Source: an uncultured Clostridia bacterium (GTDB lineage: Bacteria > Bacillota > Clostridia > Christensenellales > UBA1242). From it: a stretch of 45,582 nucleotides of DNA. Position 1 is the first letter of the stretch. Each line of letters begins with the position of its first letter. A program made the translations under genes and the position numbers. The stretch lies in the NCBI GenBank assembly GCA_944381825.1, contig CALWMK010000008.1, forward strand, positions 1-45,582. Reading direction: 5' to 3'. Positions 14,982-40,617 of this stretch are shown here, in pieces. The notes below the pieces were generated by a model, which had not been told where the DNA came from, searched no databases, and saw only the letters and a program-made list of their open reading frames with translations.

Positions 14982-15530
14982 CTATTTTTTGCCTTTACCG
15001 GCAGTTTTTCCGACTTTTCTAATTACAACTTCATCAGAGTACTTAATACCATAACCATGATAAGGCTCAACTGGTTTTAAAGCTCTAATTTTAGCTGCGT
15101 ATTGGCCAACCATTTGCTTGTCAATACCTGACACTAAAATTTCAGTAGCAGATGGACAATCTAATTTGATTCCATCATTTTCAACAACTTCAACGTTATG
15201 AGAAAGACCAATATTCATAACAATTTTGTTCCCTTGTTTAGAAACTTTGTAACCAACACCTTTTATTTCGAGTTTTTTTGAGAATCCTTCACTCACACCA
15301 TGAACCATATTATTCAAAAGTGCTCTATAAAGACCATGTTTAGCTTTAGCATCGTTGGTTTCATTTGTTCTTGTCAAGCAAACAACACCATTTTCACATT
15401 TGACAACGATTTGTTTATCAACATCTTGAGAAAGTTTGCCTTTTGGACCATTGACAACAACATTTTGTCCATTTACTTCAACGGTGACTCCAGCAGGGAG
15501 TATAATTTCTTTTCTTCCAATTCTAGACAT
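14982..15530 (-). CDS. rplF: Large ribosomal subunit protein L6 (uL6)
   Basis: 50S protein near the sarcin-ricin loop and the factor-binding site. The 182-residue protein has two L6 repeats: [70 protein letters not shown] and the C-terminal signature [20 protein letters not shown]. Located between rpsH and rplR. Confidence 0.98.
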
Positions 15531-15539
15531 AATTTCCTC

Positions 15540-15932
15540 CTACCATACATATGCAAGCACTTCACCGCCTACACCTTTTTCTCTAGCTTGCTTATCTGTT
15601 AAAATTCCCTTGTTTGTGGAAATGATAGCAATTCCCAAACCACTTATAACTTTAGGAAGTTTGTCGCATGGAGCATAAACTCTAAGACCTGGTTTTGAAA
15701 TTCTTTTAAGACCGGAAATAACACTTTCATTATCCATATATTTTAGTGTAATTTTAATATTTTTAAAATTACCACTATTAACAATTTCAAAGTTTGCAAT
15801 ATAACCTTCATTCAAGAGGATTTGAGCGATTGCAAGTTTTTCGTTTGAAATGCTTACTTCAACGACCTCGTGTTTTGCGCCAATCGCATTTCTAATTCTT
15901 GTAAGCATATCTGCTATTGGATCATTAACCAT
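15540..15932 (-). CDS. rpsH: Small ribosomal subunit protein S8 (uS8)
   Basis: 16S rRNA-binding protein; in E. coli it represses the spc operon through an rRNA-like site near rplE. The 130-residue protein starts [20 protein letters not shown] and ends with the typical [20 protein letters not shown] and [11 protein letters not shown]. No comparable operator was recognised before rplE here. It lies 15 bases after rpsN. Confidence 0.98.
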
Positions 15933-15947
15933 TTTTTCGTCCTCCTC

Positions 15948-16133
15948 TTACCAACTTGCCTTTTTAACACCAGGAATTTCACCCTTGTTAGCAAGTTCTC
16001 TAAAACAAATTCTGCAAAGACCATATTTTTTTAGCACTGCATGAGGTCTTCCGCAAATACTACAACGAGTGTATTCACGAGTAGCGTATTTTTGTTTTCT
16101 TTGTTGTTTTTCAATTAAAGCTTTTTTTGCCAT
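15948..16133 (-). CDS. rpsN: Small ribosomal subunit protein S14, zinc type (uS14)
   Basis: 30S head protein. The 61-residue product [20 protein letters not shown] is the short zinc-ribbon (type Z) form with CSIC and CRIC pairs separated by [12 protein letters not shown], ending in [11 protein letters not shown]. The ATG at 16133 follows a GGAGCG-type site; an upstream ATG at 16154 overlaps the rplE end. The zinc form is the usual one encoded within Firmicute spc operons. Confidence 0.97.
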
Positions 16134-16143
16134 TTCGCTCCTC

Positions 16144-16698
16144 CTATCTTTCACTAAAAGGCATTCCTATTGCCTTTAAAAGTGCAAGTGCTTCACTGTC
16201 AGATTGTGCTGATGTAACAATCATAACATCAAGGCCTCTAGTTCTTTCGACTTTATCATAAACGATTTCAGGGAAAATAAGTTGTTCTTTTATTCCCATT
16301 GCATAGTTTCCATGACCATCAAATGATTTTGGAGAAATCCCTCTAAAGTCACGAAGTCTTGGGAGTGCTATGGAAATTAGTTTATCTAAAAATTGATACA
16401 TTTTATCTCCTCTAAGGGTTACCTTTGCACCAATTTTCATACCTTGTCTAACTTTAAAGTTTGAAATCGCTTTTTTAGCAGTAGTTGGAATTGCCTTTTG
16501 ACCTGCTATTGCAGTCAATTCATCAACAGCCAAATTATAGCTTTTTGAATTGTCTTTAACTTCGCCAAGTCCCATATTTAAAACAATTTTTTCAATTTTA
16601 GGAACTTCATTGACATTCTTATACCCAAATTCTTTAATAAGATAAGGAACAACTTCATCTTTATAAAACTTTTTGAGTCTGTTTTCAATCTTAGCCAT
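16144..16698 (-). CDS. rplE: Large ribosomal subunit protein L5 (uL5)
   Basis: 5S rRNA-binding protein of the central protuberance that contacts the P-site tRNA. The 184-residue protein has [80 protein letters not shown] and [20 protein letters not shown]. It follows rplX by 12 bases. Confidence 0.98.
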
Positions 16699-16710
16699 TT
16701 AAATTTCCTC

Positions 16711-17193
16711 CTACTCTTCTGTTTTCTTCACTGTTTTTGCAGTGGTAGACTTTTTTGTAGATGTAGCTTTAGAAGTTTTCTTTTCAGAAGCTTTTGCGGA
16801 AGCTTTTTTTTCTTTAGGCGCAACTTCATCAGCTTTTGCAGCTTTAGCAGACTTTTTAGCATCTTTCTTAACTGCTTTAGCATGTTCTTTGTCAAGGCTC
16901 ATTCCACAAACTTTGCACACTCTAACTTTTTTACCATCAATAATTTTGTGTGCAACTCTTGTAGCCTTTCCGCATGAGCACATAACCATAACATTAGAAG
17001 CATCAATAGGAGCAGGTTTTTTAACAATTCCGCCTTTTTCTTGAGCACTCTTTGGTTTTGTGTGTCTGCTAACAATGTTTACGCCATCAATAATAACACG
17101 ATTTTGCTTAATCAAAACTTCCAAAACTTTGCCTGATTTTCCCTTGTCCTTACCGGTTATAACAACAACGGTATCACCTTTTTTTATATTCAT
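16711..17193 (-). CDS. rplX: Large ribosomal subunit protein L24 (uL24) with basic tail
   Basis: Assembly-initiator protein of the 50S subunit. The KOW segment MNIKKGDTVVVITGKDKGKS and GKVLEVLIKQNRVIIDGVNI identify it, with CSC and CKVC pairs at about residues 71-98. At 160 residues it is about 55 longer than usual: the extra C-terminal part is a low-complexity Lys/Ala/Ser/Thr tail resembling histone H1 tails (for example KKSAKAAKADEVAPKEKK). The reading frame is intact up to the RBS of rplE, so the tail looks genuine. Position between rplN and rplE is standard. Confidence 0.96.
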   Translation of the reverse strand: MNIKKGDTVVVITGKDKGKSGKVLEVLIKQNRVIIDGVNIVSRHTKPKSAQEKGGIVKKPAPIDASNVMVMCSCGKATRVAHKIIDGKKVRVCKVCGMSLDKEHAKAVKKDAKKSAKAAKADEVAPKEKKASAKASEKKTSKATSTKKSTTAKTVKKTEE

Positions 17194-17207
17194 TTTAGCA
17201 ATCTCCT

Positions 17208-17576
17208 TTAAATAACCTCAGGAGCAAGAGAAATAATTTTCATATAGTTTTTATCTCTTAACTCTCTGGCAATAGGTCCAAAAATACGAGTACCTTTAGG
17301 TTGTTTTTGATTATCGATAATAACAGCAGCGTTGTCATCAAAACGGATATGAGTTCCGTCAGAACGTCTAAGTCCTTTACTTGTTCTAACTATAACAGCT
17401 TTAACAACGTCACCTTTTTTAACCATTCCACCAGGAATAGCTTTTTTTACAGAAGCAATAATAACATCTCCAATGTTACCACTTCTTCTATAAGAGCCTC
17501 CAAGCACACGAATGCACATTATTTCCTTTGCACCTGTGTTGTCTGCAACTTTTAATCTTGTTTGTGGTTGTATCAT
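17208..17576 (-). CDS. rplN: Large ribosomal subunit protein L14 (uL14)
   Basis: 50S interface protein that forms bridges to the 30S subunit and is the target of silencing factor RsfS. The 122-residue protein starts [20 protein letters not shown] and contains [40 protein letters not shown] and [20 protein letters not shown]. Located between rpsQ and rplX. Confidence 0.98.
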
Positions 17577-17589
17577 AACGGCACTCCTT

Positions 17590-17850
17590 TTACTTAGCTT
17601 TTTCTACTATTCTAACAAGGCGATAGTATTTATCTTTACTAAGTGGTCTTGTTTCCATAATTTCAACGATATCTCCAAGAGCACATTCGTTGTTTTGGTC
17701 ATGAACCTTAAACTTGTTAGTTTTTTTAACGACTTTTTTATAAATTGGATGTTTTGAGTTGGAAACAACTTTAACTACTATTGTTTTATCCATTTTTCCA
17801 GCACTCACAACTTCGCCAAGTTTTGTAGGTCTTGTGTTTCTATCTTCCAT
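17590..17850 (-). CDS. rpsQ: Small ribosomal subunit protein S17 (uS17)
   Basis: 16S rRNA-binding OB-fold protein of the 30S body. The 86-residue product carries [40 protein letters not shown] and [20 protein letters not shown]. It starts one base after the rpmC stop, which suggests coupling. Confidence 0.98.
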
Positions 17851-17851
17851 A

Positions 17852-18058
17852 TTACACCTCTACTCCTTCTTTGAGTTCTCTTTCTCTCAAAATTGTTTTA
17901 ACTTTTGCAATATCCTTTTTAACCACATGAAGTTGCATATTGTTTGGAAGATTGCCAGTGGCATGTGAAAAACGCAAATTGAAAAGTTCGGTAGTCAAAT
18001 CATTAAGTTTTGCTTTTAATTCCTTAGTTGTCAAACTTCTAATTTCTTTAATTTTCAT
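17852..18058 (-). CDS. rpmC: Large ribosomal subunit protein L29 (uL29)
   Basis: Small helical 50S protein at the peptide exit tunnel. The product (68 residues from the second of two adjacent ATGs, chosen for spacing from AGGAGG) reads [20 protein letters not shown] and [20 protein letters not shown], typical of L29. It overlaps the rplP end by 11 bases, indicating coupled translation. Confidence 0.97.
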
Positions 18059-18476
18059 CATTGCCCTCCTCAGTTCTCTTTATAAATTTTGTTTTGCAAG
18101 GAAGCTTCATAGAACCAAGTCTTAAAGCCTCACGAGCCACAGGTTCTGAAATACCTTTCATTTCAAAAAGCACTCTACCAGGTTTAACAACTGCAACCCA
18201 AAATTCTGGAGAACCCTTACCTGAACCCATACGAGTTTCTGCAGGTTTTTTTGTTACAGGTTTATCAGGAAAAATATTAATCCAAACCTGTCCACCACGC
18301 TTTATATATCTTGTCATTGCAACACGAGCTGCCTCAATTTGGTTTGACTTAATCCAGCAAGGTTCTGTTGCAATAATTCCAAAATCACCATAAGCAAGTT
18401 TATTGCCTCTTGTTGCAACACCAGTCATTCTACCACGATGAACTCTTCTTCTTTTAACTCTTTTAGGCATTAACAT
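18048..18476 (-). CDS. rplP: Large ribosomal subunit protein L16 (uL16)
   Basis: 50S protein near the A site that helps place aminoacyl-tRNA. The 142-residue protein contains [60 protein letters not shown], and the [20 protein letters not shown] block. The ATG at 18476 is 9 bases after GGAGG and overlaps the rpsC stop as TGATG; the ATG at 18470 gives the more common N-terminus. Confidence 0.98.
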
Positions 18477-19141
18477 CAGTCTTTACCTCCTTTGTCCTCT
18501 TTAGCGTTTAAAATTTCGCCTTTATAAATCCAAACTTTAACGCCAAGTTTACCGTAGTTGGTAAATGCAGAAGCAACACCATAATCAACATCTGCTCTAA
18601 GAGTGTGAAGTGGAAGAGAACCTTCCATATATTTTTCGGTTCTAGCAATTGAGTTGGCACCATCTACAACCCCACTAACTTGAACCTTACAACCCTTAGC
18701 TCCAGCTTTCATAACCCTTTGCAAAGCACTTCTTAAGCATCTTCTAAAAGGAATTCTTTTTTCTAGTTGAGAAACAATGCTTTCAGCAACTAAAACAGCG
18801 TCAAGGTCTGGCTTTTTAATTTCTTTAACATTAACAATTAAATTTTTAGTTGGGTTTACAACCTTTTGAAGTTGTTTTTTAAACTCTTCAATTCCAACAC
18901 CTTTAGCTCCAATAAGCATTCCAGGTCTTCCAGTATAGATATTAATAACAAGTTTAGATTTTGTTCTTTCAATAGAAATTTTTGATATGGCACAATTTCC
19001 ATAATTCTTTTTAATAAAATTTCTAATCTTGTTATCTTCTTTGATATACTTAGCAAATTCGTCTTTGTCAGCATACCATGTTGAATCCCAACCTTTGTTG
19101 ATACCAATTCTAAGTCCAATAGGACTAACTTTTTGTCCCAT
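18476..19141 (-). CDS. rpsC: Small ribosomal subunit protein S3 (uS3)
   Basis: 30S protein lining the mRNA entry tunnel, contributing to mRNA unwinding. The 221-residue product begins [20 protein letters not shown], has the KH domain with [20 protein letters not shown], and the C-terminal domain [20 protein letters not shown] and [20 protein letters not shown]. Position after rplV is standard. Confidence 0.98.
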
Positions 19142-19150
19142 ACTAACCTC

Positions 19151-19537
19151 CTACGCCTTTTGGTCAAGTATGATAGTTATATGACTTGACCTTTTAAGCA
19201 TTCTGTCTGCTCTTCCTCTAGCCCTAATTAAAATTCTTTTTAGAGTTGGACCAGGAGAAACATAACATTCCGCCACGAACAAATCTGCTCTATTGATTGA
19301 TTTGTTATTTTCAGCATTAGCAATTGCTGATTTTAAAAGTTTTGAACAAACTTCTGCAGCAGCATGTGGTGAATTTTCAAGTATAGCTGTAGCCACTGCC
19401 ACATCTTTTCCTCTAATTGTATCAAGAACAATACGCACTTTTGAAGGACTCATTCTTATATAGTTTGCTTTTGCAAAAGGTCTTTGGTCCTTGTTTTGCT
19501 TTCTTTTTTCTGTTTTTTCTCTAATTCTTGTAGCCAT
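19151..19537 (-). CDS. rplV: Large ribosomal subunit protein L22 (uL22)
   Basis: 50S protein whose loop lines the peptide exit tunnel. At 128 residues it is about 15 longer than usual because of a basic N-terminal extension (MATRIREKTEKRKQNKDQRP) ahead of FAKANYIRMSPSKVRIVLDT. The rest is typical: VATAILENSPHAAAEVCSKL and YVSPGPTLKRILIRARGRAD. It lies between rpsS and rpsC. Confidence 0.97.
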   Translation of the reverse strand: MATRIREKTEKRKQNKDQRPFAKANYIRMSPSKVRIVLDTIRGKDVAVATAILENSPHAAAEVCSKLLKSAIANAENNKSINRADLFVAECYVSPGPTLKRILIRARGRADRMLKRSSHITIILDQKA

Positions 19538-19548
19538 ATTTCACCTCT

Positions 19549-19842
19549 TTAATCTTTACTACCAGTAGTTTTGCCTTTTTGCTTGCTTCCAGCATGCCCT
19601 TTAAATGTTCTCGTTGGAGCAAATTCTCCAAGTTTATGACCAACCATTTCAACAGTACAGTAAACAGGAACATGTTTTTTTCCGTTGTGGACAGCAAAAG
19701 TGAAACCTACAAATTCTGGATAAATAACTGATGCTCTAGACCAAGTTTTAATTGGCTTTTTAACACCTGTTTTGTTCATTTCTTCAACTCTTTGTAATAG
19801 TTTTGGAAAAACATAAGGTTTTTTCTTTAATGATCTGCTCAT
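19549..19842 (-). CDS. rpsS: Small ribosomal subunit protein S19 (uS19)
   Basis: 30S head protein that binds with S13. The 97-residue protein starts [20 protein letters not shown] and contains [40 protein letters not shown] and [10 protein letters not shown]. Located between rplB and rplV. Confidence 0.98.
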
Positions 19843-19853
19843 ATCTTTAACTC

Positions 19854-20681
19854 CTAGTTAATTCTTTTAACAATCAATCTGTTAGATGATTTGTTTTTCT
19901 TTCTTGTCTTGTATCCAAGTGCTGGTTTACCCCATGGAGTAACAGGTGATTTAAGTCCAACTGGAGATTTTCCTTCACCTCCACCATGTGGGTGATCATT
20001 AGGGTTCATAACCACACCTCTAACAGTAGGTCTAACACCCATATGTCTTTTTCTTCCAGCTTTTCCAATAGAGACCAATTCATGATCTGGATTTGAAACC
20101 GTTCCAATTGTTGCACGGCATCTAGCAAGAACCTTTCTCATTTCACCACTAGGCATTCTGAGCATTGCATACTTGCCCTCTTTGGCAACAAGTTGAACTT
20201 CAACACCAGCAGAACGAGCAATTTGCCCACCCTTACCAGGAATCAACTCAATATTGTGAATTGTAGAACCAACTGGAATGTTTTCAAGAGGAAGACAATT
20301 TCCGACTTTTATTTCTGAATTTGCACCACTTGTCACAATATCTGAAACATTGAGTCCAAGAGGAGCAAGGATATATCGTTTTTCACCATCAGCATAAACC
20401 AAAAGTGCAATATATGCTGAACGATTTGGATCGTATTCAATGGAAGATACTTTTGCAGGGACATCGTCTTTATTTCTTTTAAAATCTATAATTCTATATT
20501 TTTGACGATTACCACCTCCATGATGACGAACTGTAATTCTTCCGTTTGCATTTCTGCCACCAGTTTTTTTCTTAACCGCAAGCAAACTCTTTTCAGGAGC
20601 TTTTTTTGTCAATTCTTCAAAAGAAACTGTTGTTAAAAATCTGCGTCCTGCTGAAGTTGGCTTATTTGTTTTTATTGCCAT
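19854..20681 (-). CDS. rplB: Large ribosomal subunit protein L2 (uL2)
   Basis: 50S protein close to the peptidyl-transferase centre, needed for subunit association. The 275-residue product has [40 protein letters not shown], and the conserved C-terminal [20 protein letters not shown] with the functional His. It is full length and in standard position between rplW and rpsS. Confidence 0.98.
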
Positions 20682-29761: not shown

Positions 29762-29790
29762 AAAAATAAAAGCATCTGCTTTTATTTTTT
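29762..29790. terminator. Bidirectional terminator
   Basis: AAAATAAAAGCA and TGCTTTTATTTT form a 12-pair stem with a TC loop, bounded by A/T runs. It separates the convergent unknown gene (plus) and rnr (minus, stop at 29789). Confidence 0.85.
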
Positions 29791-32095
29791 AATATTCAAA
29801 TGTTGAATTTTTGTGTTTTACATTTCTATGATATTTTTTCTTATTCAAAACGCAACTTTTCTTTTCTATACAATTATTATTATTTTTATCATACTCAATT
29901 TCGCTAAAACCATGCCTCATATTTTTTAATTTGTTATATTTTTTTAAATTAACAAATTTGTGAATACTTTGATTTTCTATAATATTTTTGTTTAATGTTT
30001 TTTCCTTTTGTAAGTCTGTAGAGGTTATAATTGTTCTTGAGTTTCTATCGGTTGAAATAATTTTAACTTTAACACTATCACCCACTTTATATTCTTTTCC
30101 AGACAATAAATTTTTTAAAATAACTTTAGATTCATTTGTTTTAAAACCCAGTGAATTATTTGAAAGTTCAGAGTAAGGCAGTTTAAATTCAACAAGTCCA
30201 TATTTTAATTTCATAAAGTTATTATCAAAACAAACAATCTTACATTCAAAAACTTCATTTATATGATTTTCTGCCCAAATTGTCATAAGCAAGTTATCAC
30301 TCATCCTTTCAGCAGAGTCAGCTTTTCCCTCTCTATCAGTTAAATGTGAACCAATTTTATAAAGCTCTTCCAAAGACAAAGAGGTCTTTTTTGTTGCAAT
30401 TATCTCATGAATTTGTCTATGAACAAGAGTGTCGGGATATCTTCTAATAGGAGAGGTGAAATGAATATAGTTTTTTGAACCCAAGCCATAATGTCCAATA
30501 TTATCTGGATGATATTTTGCTTTAGACATGCAACGCAAAATTGTGTCATTTATAAACTGTTCAGACGGATGCCCCTTTATTTGCCTTAATAAATTTTGAA
30601 TGCCTTCAGAAGAAACATCTCCATCAAAATCAAGTCCCAAAAGATCAAAAATTGGCGAATATTTTTCAATTTTTTCCTCATTTGGCTTATCATGAATTCT
30701 AAATAATGTAGGAAAATTATTTTTAATAAAGAATAAACCTACTGCTTCATTTGCTAAAATCATAAGAGATTCAATGACTTTTTTTGACTGCAAGTTATTT
30801 TTATCAAGAACCTCTTTAACATTTGTTTTAGTTTTATCAAACTTGAATGTTGGTTCATTGCTTACGAAATTCAGCCCCCCTCTTCCCCTTCTATTTTTAG
30901 ATAAAATTTCGTTAATTTGATAAAGAATATCAATATTATTTACAATATCAGAAAACTCTTTTCTTGCATTATTTTTATTTAAATAAATATCTTCAACAAC
31001 TTCGTAAGATAAACAATGTTTAATTTTAATAACAGATTCAATAATATCGTATTTTTTTATGTTTCCATTTAAATCTACATCAACTACAGCTGTCAAAGCC
31101 AATTTGTCGACACCTTCATTTAAAGAGCAAATATCATTTGATAATTTTTCAGGAAGCATTGGATAAACACCATCACCCAAATAACAACTTGTTCCACGAT
31201 TATAAGCTTCTTGGTCAACCAAGCTACCTTTTTTAACATAATGTGAAACATCTGCAATTGCAACAAATGCCCTAAAGCCATTTTCTATTTTTTCAACATA
31301 AACCGCATCATCTTTATCTTTACAATCATATGGATCAATAGTGACAAATGGCAAATGTCTTAAATCAACTCTTTTAGATAGTTCGCTGTTTGAAATATTT
31401 TTTGAAATTTTAGCCACTTCCATTTCAATTTCATTAGAAAAATCTTTAACGAAACCAAACTCAAAGGCAATAGCTTGGTTTTCTACTATTGGGTCACCTG
31501 CTTTACCAAAGATTTTAGAAACATGTCCAAAACAATAATTGCCTAAATTTGAATTATCAAAATAATCTATTGTATAAGCCACTTTTTTTCCCAACGCGAG
31601 TTTTGCTTGCTCATCTTGCCTTAAAATAAGCTTCTGTGAAATATTTAAATTGTCTGGAATAAATACATAGTCGTTTTTACTTTTTGCAACCTGGCCCATA
31701 ACAATTTTGGCTTTTCTTTCTATAACCTTAAGAATAAAGCATTCCTTTTTACCTTTAGAATTATTTAAAAACGCAACTTCAACAACATCTTCATGCATAG
31801 CATTATTTTTATTTGAAACATAATAATCTTGAGATTCACCATCAACATTTACATAACCAAAACTTTTAGTGGTGTCTTTAAAAATTCCTTTTTTTGTTGG
31901 AACGAGGTTTTTAATTAATTTATCTTTATTTGAAAAATAAATTCTTTTTTCAAGTAACAATTGTTTTAAAGCATCGGCAACTGCTTTCTCACTTATATGG
32001 AACATATTAGAAATTCTTATCACGGCAGTTTTTACATCATTATCAAACAATGAATTTGTAAGCAATTTTAAATATACTTTTTCCTTAAGTTCCAT
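29789..32095 (-). CDS. rnr: Ribonuclease R
   Basis: Processive 3'-5' exoribonuclease that degrades structured RNA and takes part in rRNA quality control. The 768-residue protein has an N-terminal winged-helix region, cold-shock domains (about 60-190), and the RNB catalytic domain starting near 240 with VDLRHLPFVTIDPYDCKDKD; the metal-binding Asp residues D254, D260, D262 and D263 are kept. Other marks: YVKKGSLVDQEAYNRGTSCY, HYGLGSKNYIHFTSPIRRYP. A C-terminal S1 domain (about 625-705) is followed by a basic Lys/Asn tail. smpB and ssrA, often nearby, are not in this window. Confidence 0.96.
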   Translation of the reverse strand: MELKEKVYLKLLTNSLFDNDVKTAVIRISNMFHISEKAVADALKQLLLEKRIYFSNKDKLIKNLVPTKKGIFKDTTKSFGYVNVDGESQDYYVSNKNNAMHEDVVEVAFLNNSKGKKECFILKVIERKAKIVMGQVAKSKNDYVFIPDNLNISQKLILRQDEQAKLALGKKVAYTIDYFDNSNLGNYCFGHVSKIFGKAGDPIVENQAIAFEFGFVKDFSNEIEMEVAKISKNISNSELSKRVDLRHLPFVTIDPYDCKDKDDAVYVEKIENGFRAFVAIADVSHYVKKGSLVDQEAYNRGTSCYLGDGVYPMLPEKLSNDICSLNEGVDKLALTAVVDVDLNGNIKKYDIIESVIKIKHCLSYEVVEDIYLNKNNARKEFSDIVNNIDILYQINEILSKNRRGRGGLNFVSNEPTFKFDKTKTNVKEVLDKNNLQSKKVIESLMILANEAVGLFFIKNNFPTLFRIHDKPNEEKIEKYSPIFDLLGLDFDGDVSSEGIQNLLRQIKGHPSEQFINDTILRCMSKAKYHPDNIGHYGLGSKNYIHFTSPIRRYPDTLVHRQIHEIIATKKTSLSLEELYKIGSHLTDREGKADSAERMSDNLLMTIWAENHINEVFECKIVCFDNNFMKLKYGLVEFKLPYSELSNNSLGFKTNESKVILKNLLSGKEYKVGDSVKVKIISTDRNSRTIITSTDLQKEKTLNKNIIENQSIHKFVNLKKYNKLKNMRHGFSEIEYDKNNNNCIEKKSCVLNKKKYHRNVKHKNSTFEY

Positions 32096-32356: not shown

Positions 32357-35300
32357 TTAGCCTTTATATTTATCAGATTTCTTTTTAGAAACAATAAAGT
32401 AAACAATTACACCAGCTAGTAAAAGTACTGAAATTACAACAAGAACTGTTCCAATCACTTCATTTTTATCAACTCCAGAATTTGAATCAGCATTAACTGT
32501 AAATGTTCTTGTAACGGCCTCAGATTCATTTCCAGCAGCATCTTTAACAGTTATTGTCAATTTATAAGTGCCAGATTTAGCAATTTTATATTCATAATTA
32601 GTTTTGCTATCTCCATGAATATTTGCTATTTCATCATTATCCCTTGTAAGTTTAATAACAAGGTTATCTTTAGAAATATTTGTATCAACCAAATCAGTAA
32701 TTTTAATTAGTGAAAGGTCAATTGATAAAGTGTCGCCAATATTTACATTTGAAGGAACAAGTTTTTTATTTTCTTCATCAATTTCAATTACTGGAGGTTC
32801 CGTATCACCAACTTTAATTGTTTTTGTTACAGTAGTAGTATTATTATAAATATCTTTAACTGTGAATGTCAAAGTGTAAACTTCATTATAATTTAAAGTT
32901 ACAACTCTGTTTGTTGTTGTGTCACCATAATAAATGGTTTTGCTACCATATGATTTACTTGAAAGCACAACTTTTGAATTTTCTTCATCAATTCCACTTA
33001 AATCAAAAGCTGAAAATTGAGGAATTGTAAGTTCATATCCTAAAGCAACAACTGGTTCGACATAAATTTCACCAAGTGTTGGAGCTGTTGTATCAGTCAC
33101 TTCAATTGTAAAAGTTTTTTCTGGATTAGTAATTTCATCATTATTTTTAACTGTTGCATAGTATTGAATTTTATAAACACCCTTTTTGGCAGGAGTAAAT
33201 TCAAATTTATTTAACACTGTATCTTCTGAAGTAGGTCCGCTTATTTGTCTTACAACATAAGATTTAGTTGCGCCCTCTGGAGCTATAATTTCTGCAGTTG
33301 GCATTTTAATAGTTTCACCAAGCTCCATTTTTCCACCATTCAAAGATGTTGGCAATGAAGCAAAACCAATTTCAACTTCTTCAGAATAAGCAGCAACAGT
33401 AAAGTCATAGAAATATATTGTGTAATTATTTTTTAAATCTTTTGAAACATAAGAAACTGTGTATTTTCCAGAATAGGAAGCTAAAACTTTAACACTTTTT
33501 AAAACTATTTCATCATTATCAGTTCCATATGTTATGTCATATTCTGGATCATAAGTTTCTAAAACTGTACCATTTTCGTTTTTAACATAAACACCAACTT
33601 TAACATAATCTGCATAGTCGTCAACATAACTAACTTGATTTAAAGTAATTTCATTACCTTGTTTATAAACATTTCCAGTTGCTTCTACCAAACCTTTTAT
33701 TGAAGTTGGTAAAACATCGTTAGTGTCAATGATATCTATTGTTGCTGTTATTTCATTTGTGTTTCCAGCATTATCAATTGCTTTGGCTCTAAGTCTTAAT
33801 TCATTAGCTTCAATAATTTCAAGTTTATATTCACCATTTTCTGGGGTCAAAGTTTTCCAATCAGACTCTTGTGGTTCATCACTTGTAACAAAAACATAAT
33901 CAACAATAAGTTTTAATCTTGTATCAACATTATCAGTGGCTGAAGGAGAAAGGAAGGTTAAAAGGTCCCCGACTCTTGTTTGTGATGGAAGAGCTTCACT
34001 TTCGCTCCATTTCACTTCTGGTTTTTCATCATCAACAAATCCAGTTTCAAGAGTAATTTTATATGTTGGAGATTCAGATACATTTCCCGCCTTGTCTTTT
34101 GCAATATAAACCACATTGTAAACACCATTAGTTAATGATGCCCCTTCGTTTAAATTTGCTTCAACTTGGGTGTTTGAATCAATTGTAAAGGCCGTGCCAT
34201 CATAATTAAATACAAGTTCCTTATTTGGGTTTTCGCTTGATTCAAAAATAACATCACCATTTGATTTTACAATTTTTCTAGTAAGAGTGAGTTCGGAAAG
34301 TTCTTTTGAAACATTATCATCTGCCCAAATGGCTGGCAAAACAAGATTTTTTGTGTCATGTTTTTCAGCAAGCTGATAAAGTTTGTCATCATCTTCTTGT
34401 GGCTCATCGGTATAAGCGCTTACAAATCTTACTTGTGGAGCTTTAGAATCTTTCACACCCTTTATTTCAAATCTTGAACTTTCAGCGCTATTTCCAAAAA
34501 AGTTTTTAACATTATAAATTATTATATAATCACCATCTTTGTCAGGTGTAAATTTATTTCCATCTATAACTGTAGAAGTTACATCTTCCTCTTTTATAAC
34601 TTCTCCTGTTGTTGTGTTATAAGAAATTCTTTTTGCTTGAATTGTATAATGAACACCAACTGCATCGGAAGTTGTCATATTTTTTCCTGTCACAGAAGGA
34701 AGAGTTGTTTCAACACCAGTAACAGCTGTTGTTGGAATTGAACTATTATAAGAATAAGAAAGCTTGTAATCATTATTATAAGTTTTGTTTGCTGTGAATT
34801 CAGTCACATAAGATGCTAAAATCCTATTATCAGCAGATTTATAAAGATAAGAAATAGTATAAACACCAACAGTATTTGCAGTAAACTCATAAAAACCTTG
34901 TGAATTTTTTATAAGTTGTTCATTATTTAGTTTGTCACCACTTGGTGTCAAAACTTCAACAATTATTTGAGGATTTGGAATTTCTTTACCATCTTCATCT
35001 TTGATAATTGGGTTTGGCAAAGTAATTTTTCCTTTATATTTTTCAATATTTATATAACTTGGAATAATTTGTTCACTATTATCATCGAACTCAAAAACAT
35101 ATTTTCCTTCTTTTGCAGCAACACGAAGCTCTTGAGAATAGTCGCCCCAACTATAAATAACCTTATAGTTACCAATATATTTTACCTCAAAAGATTGTTC
35201 AGCGCCTTCTTCAACTAAGGTTACAGATGTGCCAAAAGGATCTTTAACTGCAACAGAAACACCTGATGCATCATGACTTAATGTACCATTATTGTTTGTT

Positions 35301-35491
35301 GTCACTTTGGCTTTTGGAATAACATAGGTTCCGCCAACATTTACCTCATCTACAAAATTTTCAATTGTAAGATATGAAAATGAAGTTGTGTCAGCATATG
35401 CAAAATTTGCAATTTGTGATATCATGGGCATCGACATGCTAGCACAAAGTACAAGTGCAATTGCCAAAAACAATTTTTTAATTTTTTTCAT
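32357..35491 (-). CDS. Large Ig-like-repeat surface protein, membrane anchored
   Basis: A 1044-residue secreted protein. Residues 1-34 are a signal peptide (MKKIKKLFLAIALVLCASMS, cut near AYADT). The rest is a chain of beta-sandwich modules of about 90 residues with bacterial Ig-like marks such as YKITLETG, DTTAPTLGEIYV, DTEPPVIEID, YTLTFTVKD and YKLTITVKDAAGNESEA. The C-terminus has a helix (VIGTVLVVISVLLLAGVIVY) and a basic tail KKKSDKYKG without an LPXTG signal, so it stays in the membrane with the modules outside. A role in adhesion or wall structure is inference. It has its own promoter at 35535-35563. Confidence 0.85.
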   Translation of the reverse strand: MKKIKKLFLAIALVLCASMSMPMISQIANFAYADTTSFSYLTIENFVDEVNVGGTYVIPKAKVTTNNNGTLSHDASGVSVAVKDPFGTSVTLVEEGAEQSFEVKYIGNYKVIYSWGDYSQELRVAAKEGKYVFEFDDNSEQIIPSYINIEKYKGKITLPNPIIKDEDGKEIPNPQIIVEVLTPSGDKLNNEQLIKNSQGFYEFTANTVGVYTISYLYKSADNRILASYVTEFTANKTYNNDYKLSYSYNSSIPTTAVTGVETTLPSVTGKNMTTSDAVGVHYTIQAKRISYNTTTGEVIKEEDVTSTVIDGNKFTPDKDGDYIIIYNVKNFFGNSAESSRFEIKGVKDSKAPQVRFVSAYTDEPQEDDDKLYQLAEKHDTKNLVLPAIWADDNVSKELSELTLTRKIVKSNGDVIFESSENPNKELVFNYDGTAFTIDSNTQVEANLNEGASLTNGVYNVVYIAKDKAGNVSESPTYKITLETGFVDDEKPEVKWSESEALPSQTRVGDLLTFLSPSATDNVDTRLKLIVDYVFVTSDEPQESDWKTLTPENGEYKLEIIEANELRLRAKAIDNAGNTNEITATIDIIDTNDVLPTSIKGLVEATGNVYKQGNEITLNQVSYVDDYADYVKVGVYVKNENGTVLETYDPEYDITYGTDNDEIVLKSVKVLASYSGKYTVSYVSKDLKNNYTIYFYDFTVAAYSEEVEIGFASLPTSLNGGKMELGETIKMPTAEIIAPEGATKSYVVRQISGPTSEDTVLNKFEFTPAKKGVYKIQYYATVKNNDEITNPEKTFTIEVTDTTAPTLGEIYVEPVVALGYELTIPQFSAFDLSGIDEENSKVVLSSKSYGSKTIYYGDTTTNRVVTLNYNEVYTLTFTVKDIYNNTTTVTKTIKVGDTEPPVIEIDEENKKLVPSNVNIGDTLSIDLSLIKITDLVDTNISKDNLVIKLTRDNDEIANIHGDSKTNYEYKIAKSGTYKLTITVKDAAGNESEAVTRTFTVNADSNSGVDKNEVIGTVLVVISVLLLAGVIVYFIVSKKKSDKYKG

Positions 35492-35690: not shown

Positions 35691-35716
35691 TTAAAAAAAA
35701 GTGACAAATTGTCACT
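35691..35716 (-). terminator. Terminator of the VirB4-like gene
   Basis: AGTGACA and TGTCACT pair around a 3-base centre (35700-35716), followed on the minus strand by eight T residues. It lies 22 bases after the stop at 35739 and separates this gene from the surface-protein gene. Confidence 0.85.
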
Positions 35717-35738: not shown

Positions 35739-38393
35739 TTATGAAAACAAAGATTTAACATAATCATGCGCCACAATCTGAACCATAGTTCTACTCATAG
35801 GTCCAGTTATTAAAAATGCTTGTCCTACACCAGCTGTAACAATAGAATTTTGCTCTTCCTCATTAATTTCACCAGATTTTCGATAAAGTTCTACAAGATC
35901 ATTCATGTCATTTGGTGAAAGCGAAAAAATCATTGAATATTGACTTGCGTTGATTACGGCAGTCGACTGTCTTTGAATCGCCTCACTTCCAACAAAGTCT
36001 TTAATATTTTGGGTAATAACAATTTGCATTCCAGAATATTTTCTAATTCTTTTTGCCATTTGTGCCATAAAGTCTAGTGCTATAGGATAATTAGGATTGA
36101 TAAACACATGGGCTTCATCGACAGCAATAATAATTTTTCTGTTCATACCAAATTTATCGTTAAAATCTTTATTTTTAATAATTTCATTATCCAAATATTT
36201 AAATACCAATAACATTTGCGCACTTGCAATTGTTTGATTTCTATTTGCAAGAAGAGAACGAAAATTAAATGTTACAAAATTTTCTTTTGTTTCAATAGAA
36301 GTAGGTCCATTCCAAAGATTGCTATTTCTACCACCTGTAGAAAATTTTTGAATATATGTTTGCACCGTGATGTAATTTCTTCTATGATATTCATTTGTTT
36401 CTTGGTCAACTTTTTCACAAATATACGCAAACAAATCATCAAAGATTGGATAATCGTTTGGTTTTAATTTGGAAAGATCGGTTTTAGATGTAATTCCTTT
36501 CCTCTTATACACTTCAACAACGGCAGAATTTAAAACCTCAAATGCATCGGAAGAAATTCCTTCCAAAATAACCTTAAAAAATTGCTCCAAAAATTGTAAA
36601 TGAATTGAAAAAGTATCACTATCTTCGGTTTTAAGCAAACTTTCTTTCTCGTCTTCACTTTCTTTTATATCATCTTTTAAATTCGTCATTATATGGAAAG
36701 GATTTATAATACCCATTGCAGAAGAACCAACATCAATGACTTTTCCTTTCAACCTAAATGAAAGATTGGTATATTCATCTTCTGGATCAAGAATAAAAAT
36801 TTTTGTGTTATCAGCTGCGAAATTACTAAGTAGAGTTTTTGTTGCATAACTTTTTCCCGATCCAGATTTTCCAATAATCATCATATTGCTATTAACTCTT
36901 TCCCTATCTCTTTTAAAAAAGTCTACAAAAACTGGGAATTCATTATACCCCACATAAAATCCATTAGGGTCTTGAAGTGCACTAGAAACAAATGGAAACA
37001 ATGCCGCCAAAGTAGAGGTTGGTATACCTCTTTTTGTGTCTTTAATACTATCACGCATGGATATGTTGGAACTTACAAATGCATCTACCTGTCGCCCAAA
37101 CATTTCGCTATATTTAAAACCTTCTTGCTTTAAAATTGCTCTAACTTCTTTTCTAGCTTGGTCTTCACAGGTTATAAAGGTATTCACATCATATAATTGC
37201 TGGTTGTTATTTTTTAAACTTACAAGCAAATCTCTTAGAGTTTCAAGATGGGTTTCATTTTCAATTCTTCTACTTGATTTTCCACTATAAAAAACTTTAG
37301 TTTCCATTTCCATTATAGCTTTATCCAAGTTTTTTTCTGCATCCATTTTTGGAATTGGTTTAATTTTAGTAATAACTCTTGTTCTATCTAAAAGATAATA
37401 TGGAGCACCCCAAGCATTTGCAACTTGCAAAGGATAATCGCTAATAACAAATTGTCTAAATGGCTTATTGTCAATTAAAACTCTATTCGCTTTAAACTTA
37501 ATTTGATTTGGAGTTGCCCAATCAACATGCTTTGACATTGGGATTCCATCAAGTTCTCTTTCATCAAATTCCTTTCCATAATTTGCCCTTAAAAACACAA
37601 CCAAATCACGCCCATAAAGTCTTTGGGTGTAAAGTGGTGTGACAGCATTTACCAGAGTGTTCATCATTCCATTTACGGTGTTTTCTAAAGATTCTTTATC
37701 CTTATCAAAAACCATAAGATAAAAGTGATCTTTATATATTTTATCTTGTCTATTATAATCTTCCATAACCGAAACTCTTTCTTCAAAAACTCCGGCTCTC
37801 ATTTCAACTTCAGCAGGACTAATTTCTCCTTCATATTGAAGTTCAAGAAGATTATCATATTTTTTATCTTCATTATAAATGTAATTGTCCAAAATCATAG
37901 CTTTGTTTAATTTTATTATAGAAGCCATTTGGTCATTTGCCAATCTTCTCAAAGCATTAGCAAAAGTTTCAATCAACATATTTTGCTTATACTCGTTTAA
38001 AAGACCAAACTCTAAAGGAGTTATTTCAAAAACTTGAGCATAGTAATTTTCAAAATCAATAAACCTATCTTGAACAACTCCAACAAAAGGAATAATTTCA
38101 TTAATAGGTGAAAAGCCTTTCACAACTTTTTTGCTAAATTTTTTCCTTTGCGCAAAAAACCTAAATATAAATCCTAAGGTTTCATATAATCTTAAATTGT
38201 CTGCAACTTTAAAATATAAAGAAACAATTATTGTTACCCAAGCTATTCCAAACCAAATGTTATAAGCAATGCCTTGTGAAATAAAAAGAGCAATTGCAAC
38301 AGCAATTCCAATAATGCCCAAAATAATATCACCTATAGTTATTCCACGAATAAACTCAATTTTGACTTTTGTCCTTCTAGGTATAACTCTCAT
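35739..38393 (-). CDS. VirB4/TraE-type ATPase with fused membrane segment
   Basis: An 884-residue ATPase of the VirB4/TrbE/ConE type that powers type IV secretion or conjugation. Residues 18-60 form two membrane helices in a PrgI-like arrangement, fused to the ATPase. A middle domain (about 90-330) is the VirB4 N-terminal region. Walker A is GKSGSGKS at 508-515, Walker B IIIAVDEAH at 754-762, and FILDPEDEY and the QIVITQNIKDF segment fit the family. All motor residues look intact. No relaxase, coupling protein, VirB6, lytic transglycosylase or integrase gene is seen nearby, so it stands alone between a surface protein and an unknown gene. Confidence 0.9.
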   Translation of the reverse strand: MRVIPRRTKVKIEFIRGITIGDIILGIIGIAVAIALFISQGIAYNIWFGIAWVTIIVSLYFKVADNLRLYETLGFIFRFFAQRKKFSKKVVKGFSPINEIIPFVGVVQDRFIDFENYYAQVFEITPLEFGLLNEYKQNMLIETFANALRRLANDQMASIIKLNKAMILDNYIYNEDKKYDNLLELQYEGEISPAEVEMRAGVFEERVSVMEDYNRQDKIYKDHFYLMVFDKDKESLENTVNGMMNTLVNAVTPLYTQRLYGRDLVVFLRANYGKEFDERELDGIPMSKHVDWATPNQIKFKANRVLIDNKPFRQFVISDYPLQVANAWGAPYYLLDRTRVITKIKPIPKMDAEKNLDKAIMEMETKVFYSGKSSRRIENETHLETLRDLLVSLKNNNQQLYDVNTFITCEDQARKEVRAILKQEGFKYSEMFGRQVDAFVSSNISMRDSIKDTKRGIPTSTLAALFPFVSSALQDPNGFYVGYNEFPVFVDFFKRDRERVNSNMMIIGKSGSGKSYATKTLLSNFAADNTKIFILDPEDEYTNLSFRLKGKVIDVGSSAMGIINPFHIMTNLKDDIKESEDEKESLLKTEDSDTFSIHLQFLEQFFKVILEGISSDAFEVLNSAVVEVYKRKGITSKTDLSKLKPNDYPIFDDLFAYICEKVDQETNEYHRRNYITVQTYIQKFSTGGRNSNLWNGPTSIETKENFVTFNFRSLLANRNQTIASAQMLLVFKYLDNEIIKNKDFNDKFGMNRKIIIAVDEAHVFINPNYPIALDFMAQMAKRIRKYSGMQIVITQNIKDFVGSEAIQRQSTAVINASQYSMIFSLSPNDMNDLVELYRKSGEINEEEQNSIVTAGVGQAFLITGPMSRTMVQIVAHDYVKSLFS

Positions 38394-38622
38394 ATGTACA
38401 ACTCCTATTTTATGATTTTATTATATCCTATAAATCAAAAAAAACAAAATATATGAGCTAAAAAATAAATATTAAAAATTTAATAGTGCAACCAAAATAT
38501 AAATTATTAATTTAAAAATTTTTTTTTAACAAAGACAAAAAATTATTCATAAAAAAATAAGTTTTGAATTAATTTTATAAAGTTGTAACATATTTTTTAA
38601 ATTTTTTTAATAAATTGTACTA

Positions 38623-39865: not shown

Positions 39866-40231
39866 TTAAAAACCTAATGAAATTAATATGGCTCTTCCAA
39901 CTTCTTTCATCTTTGTAGAATCTAATTTTGCAATTTGTTCTTTTAATCTTCTTTTATCTATAGTTCTAAGCTGTTCTAAAAGTATAACTGAATCTTTTGG
40001 CAATTTATAAGTTGTGGCATCAAGTTCAATATGTGTTGGAAGCTTTGCCTTGTTAATTTGACTTGTTATGGCTGCCACAATTACTGTGGGAGAAAATTTA
40101 TTTCCAATATCATTTTGGATAATCAAAACTGGCCTAACTCCGCCCTGTTCACTACCTACAACAGGACTTAGGTCTGCAAAGTATATATCACCTCGTTTGA
40201 TTTCCTCCAATTTTTGCAAGTTCCTTTTCAT
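39866..40231 (-). CDS. mazF: MazF/EndoA-type mRNA interferase toxin
   Basis: Sequence-specific endoribonuclease of a type II toxin-antitoxin pair. The 121-residue protein contains [60 protein letters not shown] and [15 protein letters not shown], which match Firmicute EndoA closely; catalytic Arg and Thr/Ser are in place. The start is uncertain: the ATG at 40231 lies within the upstream gene without a clear ribosome site, while a TTG at 40210 has AAGGA upstream and gives the usual length (114 residues). It overlaps the putative antitoxin gene, so they are coupled. Confidence 0.93.
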
Positions 40232-40454
40232 ATAAATTTAAATCAGACAAATCAGCTTTTTCAGCCAAGGCAATTTCTTGTTTTTCCAATTCACTTAAAT
40301 TTAAATAGTTTTGAAAGTCTGATTTCATTAGCATTGTATGCAACTGCTCACTATTTTCGTTAAGGACCTTATCTAAAATGTCCCCATAAATTTTTTCTTC
40401 TTCACTTATTTTTGTGTTTAAATTATCTCTAAGCTTGTCAAATATTAATTTCAT
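40188..40454 (-). CDS. Candidate antitoxin upstream of MazF
   Basis: An 88-residue acidic, mostly helical protein starting at the ATG at 40454 behind GGGAG. It overlaps the mazF reading frame, the usual order antitoxin then toxin. The sequence ([40 protein letters not shown]) shows no clear ribbon-helix-helix or AbrB-type DNA-binding domain at the N-terminus, so the antitoxin label rests on position, size and overlap. A disordered, Glu/Leu-rich C-terminal half could wrap MazF as known antitoxins do. Confidence 0.6.
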
Positions 40455-40617
40455 ATAATTATCTCCCATAAAACAACTTTTAAACTTCAAATTTATTTTG
40501 CGTAGTTTTCAATTTATTATTCAAATCATTAATAGTACTAAGCTTCAAAATATATATTGACTACACAAAATTTTTCTTGGTCAATCCGACTTCAATATTA
40601 ATTGTCTAAAAGATTAT

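Follow-up and report, generated by a model that had tools for sequence, protein, structure and literature searches.

A probably domesticated T4SS without a linked relaxase, fixed in the chromosomes of the gut Clostridia family UBA1242

Introduction

Why should a gut bacterium with a reduced genome keep a conjugation-type VirB4 ATPase among its housekeeping genes, and what might that ATPase serve? Genomes of UBA1242 measure about 1 Mb and lack standard sugar, amino-acid and peptide transporters as well as many biosynthetic pathways; the family is predicted to consist of probably obligate symbionts or parasites, for which the means of contact and the route of metabolite supply from partners are not known (PMC12306168). 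Whether Gram-positive bacteria possess dedicated effector-translocating T4SSs is likewise a long-standing open question according to a 2025 review (PMC12857230). A literature search on UBA1242 and "secretion system" found no paper, and none was found that describes the system presented here. The locus lies in a window of 45,582 nucleotides, the whole stretch of DNA that was analysed, from a draft genome of 31 contigs. A first-pass annotation had read the VirB4 gene as an orphan motor that might be either chromosomally fixed with a new role or left over from conjugation.

The VirB4 gene and its surroundings

The gene and its main features in the window are as follows.

35739..38393, minus strand: VirB4-type ATPase gene of the Mbov_0397 (mycoplasma TraE) type, 884 aa (open reading frame, profiles, alignment, model)
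38402..38406, minus strand: ribosome-binding site AGGAG, 8 bases before the ATG (read from sequence)
38220..38336, minus strand: N-terminal membrane hairpin, residues 20-58, at the position of a fused VirB3/PrgI (model helices; hydrophobic segments)
36849..36872, minus strand: Walker A, GKSGSGKS, residues 508-515 (conserved in 26 family members)
36108..36134, minus strand: Walker B, IIIAVDEAH, residues 754-762, with D759-E760-A761-H762
35700..35716, minus strand: intrinsic terminator downstream of VirB4, a 7-bp stem followed by a T run
32357..35491, minus strand: Ig-like surface protein of 1044 aa, secreted and C-terminally anchored (cluster c17), downstream of VirB4 (Pfam Big_13, 3.7e-10)

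VirB4 is encoded in one open frame without interruption, is single-copy in this genome and is monocistronic in the window. The protein matches the VirB4/TraG P-loop family (Pfam PF19044, 7.4e-17) and, over its full length, the NCBIfam model NF045975 VirB4_plasma, which represents the Mbov_0397 ICE ATPase of mycoplasmas (571.3 bits, E 2.9e-171, profile positions 6-893 of 894). This score falls 19 bits below the curated cut-off of 590, yet NF045975 is by far the best family; an ICE copy of VirB4 scored 589.6 against the same cut-off. Among solved relatives the protein matched 4ag5 (3.5e-48), and its structural model (pLDDT 79) aligned with this Thermoanaerobacter VirB4 at Z 36.4 over 371 residues and with R388 TrwK/VirB4 at Z 27 over about 660 residues. 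In an alignment of 26 members, the Walker A residues and D759-E760-A761-H762 of Walker B show no or almost no variation. The predicted fold, taken together with these motifs, qualifies the protein as a T4SS VirB4 ATPase, and the earlier description of an intact ATPase with its own terminator holds.

The two N-terminal helices that had been likened to PrgI are indeed present in the model (residues 20-38 and 45-58), but they are not unusual: a pair of hydrophobic segments lies ahead of the ATPase in all 26 core members and in 21 of the 22 ICE or mollicute members, and the hairpin is thus an ordinary trait of this VirB4 type. VIA-align rows scarcely reach it, so its putative VirB3-like identity is a matter of position and topology only.

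The backbone of the window is that of an ordinary chromosome, with ribosomal-protein genes including rplB, secY, rpoA, a chaperonin and an HflX-type GTPase, and Rfam and tRNA scans of the window gave no matches. The Pfam search bore out the flanks as first described, an Ig-like surface protein on one side and an unmatched open reading frame on the other. In 9 further loci a member of cluster c17 is likewise encoded no more than 10 kb downstream of VirB4, and the Ig-like protein is a candidate contact factor that may belong to the T4SS.

Partner genes on another contig of the same genome

Profiles built from the linked operons of other genera located the following genes on contig C16, all of which pass the NCBIfam cut-offs of their models (NF045849, NF045973 and NF045889).

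C16 18383-18628: VirB2-like pilin (Mbov_0395 pilin)
C16 19123-21087: VirD4 (CD1115 VirD4)
C16 21571-23445: first VirB6-like gene (Mbov_0396 membrane protein)
C16 24325-25626: second VirB6-like gene (Mbov_0396 membrane protein)

Contig C16 terminates just past the second VirB6. The pilin scores 40.5 bits on PF18895, the family of VirB2-like pilins (cut-off 26.6), and a fold search with the model of a related pilin gave no useful match. VirB4, VirB6 and VirD4, a set expected of a monoderm T4SS, are therefore present in one genome, on contigs C8 and C16. With these partners at hand the label "orphan" is wrong, and VirB4 is one part of a split system; the reported absence of a coupling ATPase and of VirB6 is true of the window and fails genome-wide. 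The relaxase, by comparison, stayed missing when the whole genome was searched for two families, MobL and PF03432. No VirB1- or VirB8-like part was found among the annotated neighbours of the T4SS genes, and mycoplasma ICEs have neither a VirB1-like hydrolase nor a VirB8-like subunit (PMC12857230).

Fixation across the family

Profile searches of the contigs of 118 UBA1242 genomes from 42 genera recovered VirB4 in 112 genomes (42/42 genera), VirD4 in 115 (42/42), VirB6 in 115 (42/42) and the pilin in 113 (41/42). All 6 genomes without VirB4 have VirD4 and all 3 without VirD4 have VirB4, so these absences are probably assembly gaps. When identity to the window's copy was taken as the reference, 99.4% of the variance in VirB4 identity lay between genera, against at most 50% in shuffles. 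Core and second copies were placed in a tree together with mollicute proteins and with homologues that other families of the order carry, but with no Patescibacteria VirB4; in this quick search, computed without bootstrap, a branch with an SH-aLRT of 98 sets the core copies apart from the rest. The core VirB4 thus shows neither the patchy distribution nor the discord with the host tree that characterise a conjugative element; elsewhere in the order, homologues of this type have a patchy occurrence. The central metabolic enzyme PPDK was considered as a vertical marker and rejected, being found in only 34/42 genera with diverged copies in g27 and g41, and its correlation with VirB4 is weak (rho 0.26; 0.49 without these two genera).

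Two markers of a mobile element are missing from the core loci: a MobL relaxase or ICE-type integrase was found at 0/81 of them, and MobL occurs within 20 kb of none of 111 core VirB4 and none of 114 core VirD4 genes. Genome-wide, MobL is absent from 96/118 family genomes, that of the window included, and PF03432 exceeds its cut-off in 1/118; in some genomes MobL is present and unlinked to the T4SS. The suggestion that the gene is chromosomally fixed and lies outside any ICE is strongly supported by the lack of MobL and integrase at the core loci, by the presence of VirB4 in 112/118 genomes and all 42 genera, by the single clade and by the ribosomal-protein, secY and rpoA backbone of the window.

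True ICEs in the same family

Close relatives carrying the gene inside an ICE had been named as grounds for rejecting fixation. Such copies are indeed found in UBA1242, but as a separate second-copy lineage which groups in the tree with ICE copies of other families, apart from the core clade. MobL lies within 20 kb of 6 of the 8 second-copy VirD4 genes, an ICE-type integrase is present in 3 of these elements, and in the best-preserved a stretch of about 20 kb contains MobL, integrase, VirD4, pilin, VirB4 and a short VirB6. Since they are true ICEs of this type and reside in genomes that also have the fixed system, they provide internal controls.

The loci concerned (L131, L133, L135-L136, L139 and L141-L142, in genomes G012, G026, G084, G004, G072 and G050) are bona fide ICEs with the same VirB4 type, most with MobL and some with a tyrosine integrase, and occur alongside the fixed system. 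Outside UBA1242, in a different family of the order, an open frame at L158:9756-13109 (G183:C2) joins MobL (residues 1-333) to VirB4 from model position 94, the relaxase replacing the VirB3-like hairpin; this may be a real fusion or an assembly join.

Operon dispersal and enlarged channel proteins

In several genera VirB4 lies in an operon of pilin-like, VirB6-like and VirB4 genes followed by further genes, with VirD4 adjoining. Early branches keep the T4SS as one operon; in the clade of the window it is split. VirB4 and VirD4 are within 20 kb of each other in 36 genomes, and in 7 genomes they share a contig at a distance of 25-76 kb, so the separation is real and not an effect of assembly. 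The tree requires no more than two breaks, one ancestral to the clade of the window and the other along the L096 lineage.

The VirB6-like proteins have a median length of 904 aa in core loci vs 490 aa in ICE-type loci, and their genes are often multiplied. Several genera (G021, G038, G056, G081, G082 and others) have up to six or seven VirB6-like matches, with open frames of about 1,600 to 4,110 aa, for example at L144:6527-12049 and 15163-20000.

T4SS genes have an excess of large secreted proteins encoded next to them (33/293 vs 8/615, odds ratio 9.6), in a comparison of related, non-independent loci with shared ancestry uncorrected. A lipoprotein of ~3300 aa (cluster c3) lies directly downstream of VirB4 at L060:12779-22661 and at 25 other loci in a large group of relatives. 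In the genome of the window, a 2565-aa secreted protein with a C-terminal anchor and no Pfam match (L123:2280-9977) adjoins the pilin and VirD4. The idea of one soluble partner behind VirB4 everywhere was rejected: c7, a 600-aa protein encoded downstream, is limited to 6 genera and shows no detectable relationship to c30 from the linked operons, and the homologue of c7 in the window's genome is on contig C5.

Comparison with known systems

Among the closest known systems is the conjugation module of mycoplasma and Spiroplasma ICEs and plasmids (Mbov_0395 pilin-like, Mbov_0396 VirB6-like and Mbov_0397 VirB4), whose proteins belong to the same families and whose VirB4 also bears an N-terminal membrane hairpin. 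The order pilin-VirB6-VirB4 is common to UBA1242, a Spiroplasma plasmid and Mesomycoplasma loci. The ICE and plasmid modules are mobile elements, however, whereas the UBA1242 genes are fixed family-wide with no linked relaxase or integrase, have a VirB6 about twice as long and, in the clade of the window, a split operon. In Mesomycoplasma hyorhinis (NZ_LR214949.1, L161:9039-18205), dprA, pilin, VirB6, VirB4 and Mbov_0399 stand in a row among housekeeping genes, with neither VirD4 nor a relaxase annotated; this may be a further fixed system, here beside a DNA-uptake gene.

Patescibacteria offer a likeness in lifestyle and mode of working, as their T4SS is chromosomal, nearly universal and relaxase-free, has VirB2-like pilins and is found in monoderm, genome-reduced, partner-dependent hosts (PMC12102498; for Southlakia, PMC12857230); a PF18895 pilin accompanies the T4SS in the genome of the window as well. 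For Patescibacteria no VirB3-VirB4 fusion is reported, and only a minority of their VirD4 genes lie near virB4 (PMC12102498), whereas in UBA1242 the hairpin is within VirB4 and linked loci regularly have VirD4 next to it. The absence of such fusions argues against placing the UBA1242 VirB4 in a Patescibacteria clade, and the nearest relatives found for the core copies, in a tree without Patescibacteria VirB4, are Clostridia ICEs. The rvh T4SS of Rickettsiales is similarly fixed and vertical, dispersed in islets, with several VirB6 proteins bearing long extensions in reduced genomes, but it is Gram-negative, has VirB8-VirB10 and VirB11 and is not homologous as a system (PMC2653234). The 89K T4SS of Streptococcus suis is Gram-positive like that of UBA1242, and there is evidence that it exports protein; unlike the UBA1242 system, 89K lies on a pathogenicity island, has a canonical VirB1/VirB8 set and is not family-wide (PMC12857230).

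What the system may do

We consider it probable that UBA1242 possesses a domesticated, relaxase-free and chromosomally fixed T4SS, acquired in a single capture, inherited vertically and used for translocation at cell contact. These data suggest a former DNA-transfer device that the bacterium now uses for itself, probably where it touches other cells. The source would have been a conjugative element of the Mbov_0397 type, captured before the family, as sampled, had diversified. The machine comprises a VirB2-like pilin, VirB4 with its fused VirB3-like hairpin, enlarged and often duplicated VirB6-like channel proteins, and VirD4. VirB4 hexamers, anchored by the hairpin beneath the VirB6 channel, may power the assembly of a pilus or channel, with the pilin as pilus or channel lining; VirD4 would deliver substrate into the channel, and large surface proteins encoded nearby may grip the partner cell. 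Cargo crossing the envelope at contact would be protein or, less likely, unprocessed DNA, and such translocation would support the partner-dependent life predicted for UBA1242. The retention of VirD4 argues for export, and the lack of a linked relaxase for protein over processed DNA.

Two readings keep the system intact but give it another task, and both seem unlikely to us. A competence-type T4SS could take up DNA from the surroundings or from a partner and pass it to ComEC, to supply nucleotides or for recombination. ComEC is present in 117/118 genomes, which leaves DNA uptake some weight; UBA1242 is reported to lack nucleotide biosynthesis (PMC12306168), and the Mesomycoplasma hyorhinis set directly follows dprA. 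Against it, VirD4, normally an export coupling protein, is kept in almost every genome. Helicobacter ComB, the classic import T4SS, is not known to have a VirD4. Furthermore, the patescibacterium Southlakia is viable without comEC while its T4SS is essential (PMC12857230). The same pore could instead export chromosomal DNA or relaxase-bearing elements in trans, the relaxase being encoded elsewhere, and this we rate no higher: VirD4 is conserved, unlinked MobL genes exist in some family genomes and in mycoplasmas ICEs of this type promote the transfer of chromosomal DNA (PMC12857230), but with MobL and PF03432 absent from most genomes mobilisation cannot explain universal retention, unless another relaxase class is general.

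That VirB4 and the C16 genes are left-overs of a decaying ICE is very improbable and already largely refuted by the retention data. The split operon and the absence of a linked relaxase and integrase would fit such decay, but the genes have been kept in 42 genera despite reduced genomes, their frames long and open and their motifs invariant, the parts are retained together, and VirB6 has been enlarged and duplicated instead of lost. The notion that VirB4 is a motor working by itself in a new role, with no tie to the C16 genes, fares just as badly; it draws on the monocistronic gene with its own terminator, but VirB4 sits beside VirB6 and VirD4 in most other core branches, with only the two breaks needed on the tree, and T4SS parts co-occur in every genus. 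Neither "conjugation remnant" nor "orphan motor" suits a VirB4 that is accompanied by VirD4, VirB6 and pilin in essentially every genome.

If the domesticated T4SS is accepted, a gut Clostridia family with reduced genomes keeps a T4SS without its linked DNA-processing part, which makes it a concrete candidate organelle and a second system for comparison with Patescibacteria. More speculatively, and in our view less likely than not, it may represent a second independent origin of a T4SS as the core device of a partner-dependent monoderm lifestyle, in which Clostridia would have turned a conjugation machine into an organ of contact-dependent translocation or feeding, in parallel to Patescibacteria.

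Further observations in the window

Two RNase R-type genes occur in this genome, one in the window (29789-32095) and one at G000:C2:88135-89886. The window copy has diverged strongly, sharing about 30-43% identity with relatives, and, as a divergent second copy, was dropped as a marker. The window also contains a MazF/PemK-type toxin gene (39866-40490), and the overlapping upstream 100-aa open reading frame is probably its antitoxin.
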